Part shown: positions 22,612 through 26,901 of the stretch, piece by piece
Numbering within the stretch: the first letter of the stretch is position 1
How the letters are laid out: each line of letters starts with the position of its first letter
Assembly (NCBI GenBank): GCA_023489435.1
Contig: JAMDCA010000002.1
Span: 1-33,375 of the forward strand
Direction: 5' to 3'
DNA length: 33,375 nt
Origin: Thermoplasmatota archaeon
Lineage (GTDB): Archaea; Thermoplasmatota; Thermoplasmata; Thermoplasmatales; Thermoplasmataceae
Notes under the pieces: model-generated
What the model was told of the DNA's origin: nothing
Database searches by the model: none
Seen by the model: only the letters and a program-made list of their open reading frames with translations
Position numbers and translations under genes: made by a program

Positions 22612-23205
22612 TCAGAACTCCCTGTGCATGATGCCATTGGCAATGGTGTAAGAATGCTCTGCCTTTATATCCGGCAGAGAGTGGGCGACCAGAATGACAT
22701 CTGCCTTCAGGGAACCCGAAAGTATCCTGATTTCATCCATAACCGTTGCTGGATCACTGAGGTTTGACAGCGCCTCATCAATCAGGACCGCCTCGGGCCT
22801 CCTGTAGAATGCTGTGGCAAGGGAAACGCGTATTCTCTGGCCCATGCTCAGGTTTCCCACCTTGCCCTGGAAATCTATCCCGAAACTCTCCTTCAGTTCC
22901 CTGATCCTCTCCTGATCCATGTCAGGCTTTCCAGGGAAGGCAATATGCCTCTCCACTGAGAGGTTTCCAATGAATGAACCCGGCGCAATGTGGACTATTC
23001 CGCGCTTCTGCACCTCCAGTTCTGTAACATCCCTTCCATTGACCCTTATGGTTCCGGACTGAAGCGGGGCGAATCCTGCCAGGGCATTGAGAAATGTGGA
23101 TTTTCCTGCACCGTTCTCGCCTGAAAGTGATATGATGCCCCCGTCATGGAAGCTTGCACTGAGCCTGAATTCCCCCTGTGCAAGGGTAAACTCAGCTTCT
23201 ATCAT
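22612..23205 (-). CDS. wtpC: Tungstate/molybdate ABC transporter ATPase, short form with altered motifs
   Basis: 197 residues, the ATPase of the wtpABC-like operon. Walker A is GENGAGKST (29-37), Walker B AVLIDE (139-144) and the H-loop H175 in VAHS. Two parts depart from the family: the signature reads LSMGQ (119-123) rather than LSGGQ, and at the Q-loop the sequence is HIAPGSFIG (72-80), with a Pro where the Gln is expected. The protein also lacks the C-terminal TOBE/regulatory domain of ModC/WtpC, which are about 340 residues. The start codon directly follows the permease stop (TAG-ATG), so the two are coupled. It may be a slow or regulated ATPase, or another ATPase could substitute. Confidence 0.82.
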   Translation of the reverse strand: MIEAEFTLAQGEFRLSASFHDGGIISLSGENGAGKSTFLNALAGFAPLQSGTIRVNGRDVTELEVQKRGIVHIAPGSFIGNLSVERHIAFPGKPDMDQERIRELKESFGIDFQGKVGNLSMGQRIRVSLATAFYRRPEAVLIDEALSNLSDPATVMDEIRILSGSLKADVILVAHSLPDIKAEHSYTIANGIMHREF

Positions 23206-24027
23206 CTACTGCCTGCCTCCCGGAAAATCCCTTCGCCTGTTCCTGTAACCCAGGTTCCCTCCTCCCACGAACCTGATGGCTATGACTATGGCTAGCGAGA
23301 ACAGTATCATGAGGGCCGAGGAAGTCACAGCGACTCCGGGCCCAAGATATCCGTATGACTGGTAAATTTGGACGGAAACTGCCTGGGCTCCGTTGAATGG
23401 GTATGTGAGTACATAGTTGGCAATGATGGCCACGGACCCGTATTCGCTCATGGCCCTGCTCATGGCTGTCAGGCTGGAGGATATGATTTCCCTGGATGCG
23501 CCTGGAACCAGAACTGAGTAGAGCACCTTCATCCTCGATGCTCCAAGCGACATGGCAAAATTCTCAGGCTCAACCGGGGAAGAAGCGAATACAGACTGCG
23601 CAGACCTGAGGTAAATGGGCATGGCAACAAAGCTGAGGGCAAGCACAAGGCCCTGGAGCGTGTTGAAAAGCCCGAACCCGATTGAAGTCAGCAACCTTCC
23701 AAATGGGGTAAGTGGGCTTCCAATGAACAGGAAGGCAATTCCCACGATGGGATGCGGAATGGATGCAGGCAGGTCAGAAACGGCCTCCCACACTGCATGT
23801 GTCTTCCTTGACAGCTCGAATGCCAGTGGCGTGAACACAAGGAATATGATAAGCGCCGCCAGTGCTGAGGAAAAAATAGTTACGCCTATGGACAGAAAAA
23901 CAGTTCTGCTAAGCCCCAGGGCAGAGTGGAAAACCACAAACCCGTAGTAAAGGATGAAAATAATGGGCACTGCCGTAATGGCAACGGAAACCAGAGATAT
24001 GGCCCATACCCAGTCCTTTCCCTTCAT
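23206..24027 (-). CDS. wtpB: Tungstate/molybdate ABC transporter permease
   Basis: 273 residues with six predicted membrane helices, the usual ModB/WtpB number. The cytoplasmic EAA loop is seen as ENFAMSLGASRMKVLYSVLVPGA, which docks the ATPase. LPASIPHPIVGIAFLF and SRAMSEYGSVAIIANY are typical of molybdate/tungstate/sulfate permeases. The C-terminus is basic (RNRRRDFPGGRQ). The gene starts 18 bases after the binding-protein gene, a gap that holds a GGAGAAAGGAG ribosome site, and ends adjacent to the ATPase start. Context with the WtpA-type protein makes tungstate or molybdate the likely cargo. Confidence 0.9.
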   Translation of the reverse strand: MKGKDWVWAISLVSVAITAVPIIFILYYGFVVFHSALGLSRTVFLSIGVTIFSSALAALIIFLVFTPLAFELSRKTHAVWEAVSDLPASIPHPIVGIAFLFIGSPLTPFGRLLTSIGFGLFNTLQGLVLALSFVAMPIYLRSAQSVFASSPVEPENFAMSLGASRMKVLYSVLVPGASREIISSSLTAMSRAMSEYGSVAIIANYVLTYPFNGAQAVSVQIYQSYGYLGPGVAVTSSALMILFSLAIVIAIRFVGGGNLGYRNRRRDFPGGRQ

Positions 24028-24045: not shown

Positions 24046-25074
24046 CTAGATGGATCCAGCTGAAGTAATTTTTCCCTGGCTGAGCAGGCCTGATATGGGA
24101 GACGGCACCGGAGTGTCATTGAAAAGAAGCGGCTTTGCAATGGGAACAAGCCCGAATGAAGCCATTTCAGCGTTGTGCGTCACCACAAAAACCGTGAAGT
24201 TCAGGGATGCAGCTGTATCCGGCCCATTACCCGCAAGGCTGGTCACGAGAAGCAGAATGGGGGATCCTGAGGCAGGGCCCGTTGCTGTGCTGTATGAAAA
24301 ACTTGAGTAGAACCCATCCATGGAAGCATTTCCGAAATTGGTGTAATTGGAAAGCTCCATATATGGAAGCCCGTCGGAAACTGCCACAGACTTGTATATG
24401 AAGAGGAATTGTATATTTCCGGTTGTGAGCGGGGTAACCAGCTCTGCAGCGCTTGTGCTGTTTGAGACACCGCCACTGGCAATTATGGAGGACGTGAACT
24501 TTGTCTCATTTCCGGCATAAAGTTTTCCTGCGATCTCAAGGGAAATCCAGCCCCTCAGGCCTGCAGGATCACTGCTGGGATTGGAAATGCCCACCTTGAC
24601 CTTCCCCGAAGTCAGGTTATCATAAGCTGAAGTGTAGTTCTGTGTACTGTTTGCCTTGAGGCCTGCACTGAACTCCTTCACTATGCTGTTCACCAGGGCA
24701 GTGTGAGTCGAATTGGAATAAGCCAGCACCAGCTGATCCGATGCAAAGGCAATGGCCCAGCCTGAGTATCTTGAACCAAGGTATGACTGGTTATAGGAGC
24801 TCTTAGAAACAGATACGAAGGCATTGGCAGGAACACCCTGGCTGATCTCACGGGCATCTGTAAAGGATCCGCCGCCCTTGGCATTCAATACACTGAAGCC
24901 CGATGCATTGTGGTATCCGGAAAGCAGGTAGTTAGTCTCAGGCACATAGGCATCGGCGGAGAAAACTATCAGGGGGCTTTCGCTGTTTGAAACGTAATGG
25001 CTATAGCCTGCATAAGCGGCAATTCCCACTATGACGATGGCAGCAATCAAGGCACCCGCCTGCTTTGTCCTCAT
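24046..25074 (-). CDS. wtpA: Tungstate/molybdate-binding protein (WtpA/ModA family), membrane-anchored
   Basis: 342 residues. An N-terminal hydrophobic segment (about 7-24, GALIAAIVIVGIAAYAG) serves as signal or anchor and the rest is extracellular and rich in Ser, Thr and Asn. The mature part opens with LIVFSADAYVPETNYLL and has KGGGSFTDAREISQG, SGWAIAFASDQLVLAYSN and KVKVGISNPSSDPAGLRGW, corresponding to the WtpA pattern (LIVFxAGSL, F/I-RFAxNxMVIAY, GxSxPxxDPxGYR). The family binds tungstate or molybdate. It is first in the wtpABC-like operon and divergent from a Tfx-family regulator, whose relatives control molybdenum-dependent genes. A TATA-like TTTTATATTT box is centred about 25 bases before the ATG. 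Confidence 0.88.
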   Translation of the reverse strand: MRTKQAGALIAAIVIVGIAAYAGYSHYVSNSESPLIVFSADAYVPETNYLLSGYHNASGFSVLNAKGGGSFTDAREISQGVPANAFVSVSKSSYNQSYLGSRYSGWAIAFASDQLVLAYSNSTHTALVNSIVKEFSAGLKANSTQNYTSAYDNLTSGKVKVGISNPSSDPAGLRGWISLEIAGKLYAGNETKFTSSIIASGGVSNSTSAAELVTPLTTGNIQFLFIYKSVAVSDGLPYMELSNYTNFGNASMDGFYSSFSYSTATGPASGSPILLLVTSLAGNGPDTAASLNFTVFVVTHNAEMASFGLVPIAKPLLFNDTPVPSPISGLLSQGKITSAGSI

Positions 25075-25093
25075 GCTCTGCCAATGGCATCCG

Positions 25094-25146
25094 AAATATA
25101 AAACATTGTTTAAAACAATACAAATGTAAACATTATTATTTTACAT
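25094..25146. promoter_or_regulatory. Shared wtpA/tfx promoter with two dyad operators
   Basis: The 88-base divergent gap holds a minus-strand TATA-like TTTTATATTT (about 25094-25103) for wtpA. Beside it is a perfect palindrome ATTGTTT-A-AAACAAT (25105-25119). Further on, ATGTAAA (25124-25130) and TTTACAT (25140-25146) form a 7-base inverted repeat with a 9-base spacer that encloses and overlaps the TATA-like region of tfx, about 25 bases before its ATG. The dyads sit where a regulator would block TBP/TFB binding on each side; Tfx is the obvious candidate. Confidence 0.6.
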
Positions 25147-25162
25147 CAGGTTATGAATCATC

Positions 25163-25588
25163 ATGGCCCAAGATGAGAAATTACCCAGAAACCTCTTCCT
25201 GTCAAGCAGGCAGATCCAGATCATGAAACTGAGGCAGGAGGGCTATTCCACGGAAGGGATCGCACGGGAGATTGGCACCACAAGGCAGAACGTCTCAATC
25301 CTCGAGAAGAGGGGCCACAGGAACCTGGAGAAAGCCATCCGGACCCTCAACGCAGTAAGGGAGTTGAAACTGTCCCACGAGGTGCATATCGAAGGCAATA
25401 TCCATGTCCTGGATGCAGTGAAGGAGATCATCGACAGGGCTGACAAGCTCAACATAAGGCTGAACGACAACCTCATTGGCCTCATGACCCGGCTCAAGAT
25501 GGCTGTGGAGAGAAACCTGAAGAACGGCATAATCCAGAAGGCAATAGACATACTGATTTTTCAGGATGGAAGCGTCCAGTTCACCTGA
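25163..25588 (+). CDS. tfx: Tfx-family DNA-binding regulator
   Basis: 141 residues. The N-terminal HTH (about 13-58, FLSSRQIQIMKLRQEGYS, IAREIGTTRQNVSILEKRGHRN) and the following AIRTLNAV segment match the Tfx family. In Methanothermobacter, Tfx binds the control region of the molybdenum formylmethanofuran dehydrogenase operon. The C-terminal half (about 70-141, HVLDAVKEIIDRADKLNIRLNDN) is helical and probably senses a ligand or mediates dimers. Lying head to head with the tungstate/molybdate transporter operon, it is a strong candidate for its regulator, perhaps sensing molybdate or tungstate directly. The ATG follows a TATA-like box by about 25 bases. Its stop overlaps the convergent MFS gene by 8 bases. 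Confidence 0.9.
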   Translation: MAQDEKLPRNLFLSSRQIQIMKLRQEGYSTEGIAREIGTTRQNVSILEKRGHRNLEKAIRTLNAVRELKLSHEVHIEGNIHVLDAVKEIIDRADKLNIRLNDNLIGLMTRLKMAVERNLKNGIIQKAIDILIFQDGSVQFT

Positions 25589-26846
25589 ACCTTATGGTTC
25601 CGCCTGAAGGGCTGCCAGGCGGCTTCAGCCTGAACAGCAGGGAGTAAAGCTGGAGAGGGGCTCTTCCCCTTACATCCGGTTCCCTGAGTTTCAGGAACAG
25701 AAGTGATGAAAGGAACCTTCCTGCGAACACTATGAGGTATCCGTAAAGCAGAGCCTCATAAAGTGGAAGGCCGGTCATAAGGTAGGACAGCAGGTATCCT
25801 CCGGTCAGTGCCCCGGCAAGGTACATCAGCCCGTTGAAGCCGTTTATGATGGAAAGGTACTCTGCCCTCTGCTTCTCCGGCACAATGTCAAGCACATACG
25901 AATTCATGACGATGTTCTGTATGCCTCCAATAACGCCGCTGTAGACCTCAAGCATTACAAAGTCAGGAAAAGTTCTCGAGAATGCATAGATGAGAGGTAT
26001 CCCGCTGAGCAGTAACCTGTTGAGGAAAATAAGCGGGGGCCTCTGGATCCTGTCCGTGATCCTGCCCAGGATAAACTGGACGATGATGGTTGACCCGATG
26101 GAAGCAATTGTGAGGAATGCCACATCTGTAAGGGTGAAATGCATCACAAGAACCATTGTGATTGGGAACATTGGCCAGGCCATTGACCAGAAATATCCCT
26201 GGGTATTCATGGCGATGAGGTAGTTGAAGAACATGGGTTCATTCCTGAGGTTCTTCAGGGTCTTCAGGATGCTTCCCACGACCTTGGTGGAATGCCTTGT
26301 CTCCTTTATCCTCCCCATAAGGATGGCGCTTATGGCATAGGAGCCTGCAGCGGCAAAGAATGCAATTGTAATGTCAGAATTCACATGGCCGCTGAACAGG
26401 AAAGTCATGGCAAGCAGTGATACCAGAGTTCCAACTGAGCTCAGATTGTTGATGATTGCAAGAAAACGCCCTCTAACGTTTGATTCTGTCTCATCTGCAA
26501 TGAGTGAGAACCAGTTCACCGTTATCATGGCGGCGAAGAAGGACACGAGGCCGTAGACTAAAATTAGCTCCAGGGGTGTGTCCACCACACCAAGAAAATA
26601 CCAGAGGATAGCCAGGATTATGCTTCCTGCAACCAGGAAAGGCCTTCTCTGCCCGACCTTGTCGCTTATCCTGCCCCAGAGGATCTGCCCTCCATTTCCC
26701 AGGGCATTTGCAGTGGACTGGAGCCATCCCATTTCAATGGCAGTCGCTCCAAGGAAGACACCGTAAACTCCAACAAAGGATGAGGCTGCAGTGGCTCCAA
26801 CTGCAATGACAATGGATCTGATGGCCAGGATGTTCTTGTTAAGCAT
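25581..26846 (-). CDS. MFS transporter
   Basis: 421 residues from the ATG at 26846 (MLNKNILAIRSIVIAVGATAAS); the longer open frame would need a TTG at 26885. About 12 hydrophobic helices are seen. The loop after helix 2 carries the MFS motif ILWGRISDKVGQRRPFLV, with a second copy ILGRITDRIQRPP in the second half, and helix 4 bears the WFSLIADETESNVRGRFLAI stretch of drug-efflux-type proteins. The central loop is short. Substrate unknown. The 3' end overlaps tfx by 8 bases (stop region GTTCA-CC-TGAAC, 25579-25590), and a GAACC-TTAT-GGTTC hairpin (25587-25600) lies within the last codons and could end tfx transcription. Confidence 0.88.
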   Translation of the reverse strand: MLNKNILAIRSIVIAVGATAASSFVGVYGVFLGATAIEMGWLQSTANALGNGGQILWGRISDKVGQRRPFLVAGSIILAILWYFLGVVDTPLELILVYGLVSFFAAMITVNWFSLIADETESNVRGRFLAIINNLSSVGTLVSLLAMTFLFSGHVNSDITIAFFAAAGSYAISAILMGRIKETRHSTKVVGSILKTLKNLRNEPMFFNYLIAMNTQGYFWSMAWPMFPITMVLVMHFTLTDVAFLTIASIGSTIIVQFILGRITDRIQRPPLIFLNRLLLSGIPLIYAFSRTFPDFVMLEVYSGVIGGIQNIVMNSYVLDIVPEKQRAEYLSIINGFNGLMYLAGALTGGYLLSYLMTGLPLYEALLYGYLIVFAGRFLSSLLFLKLREPDVRGRAPLQLYSLLFRLKPPGSPSGGTIRFR

Positions 26847-26901
26847 AATTGCCAGTTCTGAATTTTCCAGTTTATTCCAGCACAATAAATGAAACTTTGT
26901 G

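Follow-up and report, generated by a model that had tools for sequence, protein, structure and literature searches.

The tfx gene and its wtp-like neighbours

The window (the whole 33,375-nucleotide stretch analysed here) comes from a Thermoplasmata genome assembled from a metagenome, whose closest named relatives are likewise metagenome-assembled genomes (MAGs). As an earlier note on this DNA had described, a tfx gene (25163–25588, + strand) and an operon of the wtpABC type lie head to head across a spacer of exactly 88 bp (25075–25162). The operon, on the − strand, encodes a WtpA-like, membrane-anchored molybdate/tungstate-binding protein (24046–25074; PF13531), a WtpB-like permease (23206–24027) and a WtpC-like ATPase of 197 amino acids (22612–23205; PF00005, 77.6 bits). 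Among specific NCBIfam models, the first product matches WtpA best and the second tungstate_WtpB. We refer to the operon as wtp-like because all three subunits score well under the equivalog cut-offs (WtpA, 79 against 355 bits; WtpB, 106 against 340; WtpC, 59 against 440); judged by these matches, it is a diverged relative of WtpABC.

Protein Data Bank (PDB) matches of the window WtpA are AF_0094, MJ1186, MA_0280 and PF0080. The operon resembles WtpABC of Pyrococcus furiosus in its A-B-C gene order, in its anchored binding protein and in the retention of the equivalent of Asp160 (D169), the residue that sets the tungstate selectivity of WtpA (PMC10221389). It differs in that the Glu218 equivalent is lost (Ala209, with Glu211 nearby), that the ATPase is short and lacks a TOBE domain, and that every subunit is below its cut-off; metal coordination by the window WtpA may thus differ from that of the Pyrococcus protein. 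A profile search did not find PF03459 (TOBE) in the window WtpC, and both the position of this gene and its short length are conserved in relatives. Trans-inhibition through TOBE is therefore not expected, and transcriptional control may count for more. The Q-loop region of the ATPase (IVHIAPGSF) looks atypical.

The tfx product has 141 amino acids and combines a sigma-r4-like helix-turn-helix (HTH) with a TFX_C domain, scoring above the cut-offs of both TIGR00721 (80.2 bits; cut-off, 60.25) and PF14601 (TFX_C, 50.5 bits; cut-off, 27). Its PDB profile matches are EnfR (8hno) and Tfx (1nr3). The Tfx protein characterised in most detail, EnfR (TON_1525) of Thermococcus onnurineus, is a repressor that protects a DNA site (PMC10570040), and its DNA-contact residues R35, R43, R44 and T55 align with R41, K49, R50 and T61 of the window Tfx. 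An AF2 model of the window protein (pLDDT 87) was searched with Foldseek, and the sole matches at E<0.001 were the EnfR chains 8hno/8hnp (probability 1.00); the domains agree, with a difference in their relative placement (TM about 0.50, 7.5 Å rmsd). Profile searches gave no match to a LysR-type HTH or a TOBE domain in the window Tfx. An MFS transporter gene (25581–26852) is convergent with tfx, the two overlapping by 8 bp, and this neighbour is retained in several genera of the family.

A candidate operator over both promoters

Both dyads that had been reported in the spacer are present letter for letter: ATTGTTT-A-AAACAAT (25105–25119) and ATGTAAA-N9-TTTACAT (25124–25146). Their assignment of one dyad to each promoter holds for the tfx side, where the second dyad is conserved, contains the core operator described below and has its centre 28 bp before the tfx ATG, around the TATA-like stretch of that gene. 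It does not hold for the wtpA side, where the symmetry of the first dyad is peculiar to this genome: it is broken in congeners with Tfx proteins that are 82–94% identical, and just the GTTTA half is conserved. What is conserved, in place of a separate dyad for each promoter, is a single candidate operator of three half-sites in fixed register, GTTTA(C)-N12/13-GTAAAC-N6/7-GTTTAC, spanning both core promoters.

In the window, the half-sites of this operator lie at 25108–25112, 25126–25131 and 25139–25144. The core, GTAAACATTATTATTTTAC (25126–25144), comprises the half-sites GTAAAC and TTTAC and is conserved in the spacers of two Thermoplasmata families. The third half-site, GTTTA, is 18 bp from the central GTAAAC and beside the wtpA TATA-like region. 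Sigma-70-type promoter scans are not meaningful in archaea, and the promoters were placed by TATA-like sequence. The probable tfx TATA element, ATTATTAT (25132–25139, + strand), is within the core operator, 24–31 bp upstream of the tfx ATG, a spacing that fits a leaderless start. The probable wtpA element (25094–25103, − strand; AAATATAAAA on the + strand) is about 25 bp upstream of the wtpA ATG.

Aligned spacers, in which we chose the [GT][TC]AAAC anchor as position 0, share blocks of TTTA at −17, [GT][TC]AAAC at 0 and (G)TTTAC at +12/13. The TTTA block was seen in 16 representative spacers, and an A/T block at −29 to −22, on the wtpA TATA side, is also conserved. The 12-position inverted repeat matches at a mean of 10.1 of 12 positions, compared with 7.7 in dinucleotide shuffles (the highest of 400 shuffle means was 8.35), and the 33-kb window has a single copy of the pattern GTAAA-N8..10-TTTAC, where shuffles predict 0.04. 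In the second Thermoplasmata family, a left half of TCAAAC is accompanied by a right half of TTTGA, a joint change that would be expected of a dimer site; coevolution of this variant with the recognition helix was considered and rejected, as the helix is almost the same in that family. The right half-site has no clear form in two members (G013 and G385). The outer and central half-sites are 18–19 bp apart in Thermoplasmata and 20 bp apart in haloarchaea. The G+C-rich tfx–wtpA spacer of archaeon YF1.bin89 holds a perfect 12-bp palindrome, GTAAACGTTTAC, with half-sites that abut and are not 6 bp apart.

We also searched for a wider Tfx regulon within the window's family, in 18 genomes with Tfx and 20 without it. 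Genome-wide matches to the operator were near the level of a reversed-pattern control and fell mostly within genes, and no second target emerged. The intergenic matches with identified neighbours adjoin unrelated genes (for SAICAR synthetase, ribosomal protein L18e and a CBS protein).

Distribution of the gene pair and of molybdenum enzymes

The window's family was surveyed in 37 genomes: 17 encode Tfx together with a strong WtpA homologue (E<1e-80) and 20 encode neither, a perfect co-occurrence, counted over related genomes that do not represent independent events. Presence and joint absence alternate even within the window's own genus. The two genes are head to head in all Tfx genomes of the family but one, G021, in which an IS5-family transposase gene sits between wtpA and tfx (L071, 2501–3667; G021:C1). 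The operator motif remains on the tfx side there and has been lost from wtpA, a natural uncoupling of the pair. In G035, the contig ends inside tfx, and the wtpA piece carries the tfx N terminus in the expected place. The head-to-head pair recurs in another member of the family (G213) and at all six Tfx loci of the second Thermoplasmata family, and G315 has a tfx with neither wtp genes on the stretch read nor the operator motif. In a single MAG, WY2.bin136, three contig ends (L057, L058 and L069) break inside tfx; two of them share the same C-terminal part, reflecting strain variants or an assembly fork.

The earlier note had also raised the prospect that tfx and wtp genes are neighbours across archaea, and among the genomes reached this is so in several archaeal phyla. 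At seven of seven haloarchaeal plasmid loci examined (by annotated records, tblastn and protein families), tfx faces a WtpA/WtpB-like ABC operon, and each of the seven spacers has a TCAAAC-N6-GTTTGA-type repeat, TCAAA[CT]-N6-[GA]TTTGA. A count over 468 kb of loci gave 36 matches to this degenerate pattern, true copies included, so the chance of a match is below 0.01 per 100-bp spacer. In Halalkalicoccus jeotgali, MocA-like and moeA genes are on the opposite side of tfx. In the bathyarchaeote Candidatus Hecatella orcuttiae, tfx faces modABC across a spacer with GTTTAC-N12-GTAAAC-N6-GTTTAT, the operator architecture of the window's family beside a different transporter. At three further bathyarchaeotal loci (L061, L062 and L063), tfx is directly upstream of genes for a molybdenum hydroxylase (MoCoBD) and its FAD subunit; tfx itself is preceded by GTAAAC or GCAAAC and, another 30 bp upstream, by GTTTAC/CTTTAC. 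At another (L064, 1020–3200), tfx and the genes of a FecCD/Peripla_BP_2 ABC importer point away from each other; the importer may be a further one for molybdate/tungstate, of the MolBCA-like type.

In the window genome, three genes are of the MoCoBD type and two of the DMSO-reductase type, and no AOR was found. Molybdenum-enzyme families are present in 17 of 17 Tfx genomes and AOR in two (G016 and G018), and molybdate is therefore probably the main cargo; a dedicated tungsten-enzyme system was rejected on the same AOR count. ModE-like proteins, none of which reaches the curated cut-off, are encoded by 13 genomes of Tfx-less sister families, and a congener without Tfx has a weak one; the same survey found none in any Tfx-bearing genome. 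Tfx and ModE-like proteins are thus complementary in their distribution in this order. This agrees with the earlier proposal of Tfx as the counterpart of ModE, although only as regards function, given that the two are not homologous: on its domain content, the window Tfx may work like ModE, yet is not a ModE.

Proposed regulation of molybdate and tungstate uptake by Tfx

Taken together, these genomic patterns suggest that Tfx is a dedicated, autoregulated local regulator of molybdenum/tungsten oxyanion uptake that functionally replaces ModE, a reading to which we assign a probability of roughly 0.7. Tfx would most likely act as a metal-dependent repressor. A Tfx dimer would bind the GTAAAC-N6/7-GTTTAC inverted repeat and further Tfx would contact the third half-site, GTTTA(C). 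Because the TATA-like stretch of tfx is enclosed by the core repeat, and that of wtpA directly adjoins the third half-site, Tfx on the DNA would get in the way of both promoters. When intracellular molybdenum or tungsten (as the oxyanion or a derived cofactor) is sufficient, bound Tfx would keep TBP and TFB off the DNA; when metal is scarce, Tfx would release it, and wtpABC and tfx would be expressed together. We infer that Tfx very likely binds the candidate operator and that the signal is likely molybdenum or tungsten.

Known systems bear on this proposal in different ways. Tfx of Methanothermobacter (MTH0916, PDB 1nr3), associated with fmdECB, belongs to the same protein family and is likewise tied to a molybdenum system, and tungstate represses transcription of its gene (PMC3087415). 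There, tfx precedes a molybdenum-enzyme operon and Tfx binds downstream of the promoter of that operon, whereas the window tfx is opposite a transporter operon, with a candidate operator that extends over both promoters. EnfR is alike in family, fold, DNA-contact residues, the 18-bp length of its site and the presence of GTTTAC in the minimal site (AATCTTTTTGTTTACATT, which contains GTTTACATT), although the half-sites are arranged differently within those 18 bp (PMC10570040). EnfR also differs in controlling a carbon monoxide dehydrogenase (CODH) cluster, with no molybdenum or tungsten link reported (PMC10570040), so a link to these metals is not general among Tfx proteins. As with ModE and bacterial modABC, the window would hold a regulator that controls molybdate uptake locally through a palindromic operator, here predicted from conservation. 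It differs from ModE in its lack of homology, LysR-type HTH and TOBE domain, and in a regulator gene that is divergent and, we propose, autoregulated.

The main rival on mechanism, which we consider unlikely, is that Tfx represses its own gene and activates wtpABC, binding upstream of the wtpA BRE and TATA box and recruiting TFB or TBP when metal is scarce; one and the same complex would close the tfx promoter. Archaeal activators usually bind at or upstream of the BRE, which is where all of the sites lie as seen from wtpA, and the core repeat encloses the TATA region of tfx only. Against activation, EnfR is a repressor, and Pyrococcus WtpA was detected at very low and not at high tungstate, which was read as negative feedback by an unnamed factor (PMC10221389). 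Repression of both promoters by Tfx is our best guess and appears more likely than activation of wtpA. A less probable alternative concerns the cargo: the transporter might carry another oxyanion (for example, sulfate) sensed by Tfx, and the system would then not be a molybdenum/tungsten switch. The sub-cut-off score of the window WtpA, its missing Glu218 equivalent and the control of a CODH cluster by EnfR would all suit such a role. They are to be set against the retained tungstate-selectivity Asp, the molybdenum enzymes of all 17 Tfx genomes, and the occurrence of Tfx next to fmdECB, modABC, wtpABC-like, molybdenum-hydroxylase and Moco-maturation genes in separate lineages.

It is more doubtful still that the conserved blocks are mere BRE and TATA elements of back-to-back promoters, with Tfx acting elsewhere, even though GTAAAC is at the place of a BRE for a leaderless tfx (about −37 to −32) and GTTTA likewise for wtpA. 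Across 170 other gene starts in related DNA, GTAAAC is found at −50 to −20 in one and the fuller pattern in two, and we conclude from these counts that the motif is not a general promoter element. In addition, the pattern is rare genome-wide and mostly within genes, the right half-site is downstream of the TATA region, and the halves change jointly in the second family and in haloarchaea.

Repression of both promoters in response to molybdenum or tungsten remains the reading that we prefer. We put forward more tentatively, as somewhat short of an even chance, that Tfx is itself the archaeal sensor of these metals, with TFX_C binding an oxyanion or pterin cofactor through a fold unrelated to TOBE, and that it forms an ancient, cross-phylum module with a three-half-site operator in place of ModE. 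The Tfx family and a molybdenum-linked Tfx are already known. What appears to be new is the pairing with a transporter, the operator and how widely the two occur, as neither a link of Tfx to wtp or mod genes nor this operator was found in the literature searched (most subscription journals lay outside its scope).

Regulation of molybdenum and tungsten uptake in archaea that lack ModE is not settled in that literature, and what was known of Tfx came chiefly from a single methanogen operon and a single CODH cluster. The results supply a concrete candidate operator, a cross-phylum gene pairing and culturable haloarchaea that have both. Because the same gene pair and the same repeated DNA signal recur in distant archaea, our comparison suggests that Tfx is a widespread archaeal control of molybdenum and tungsten uptake, a job done by ModE in bacteria. 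If this is true, Tfx regulons would be readable from genomes, and TFX_C would be a candidate for a new class of molybdenum/tungsten sensor.
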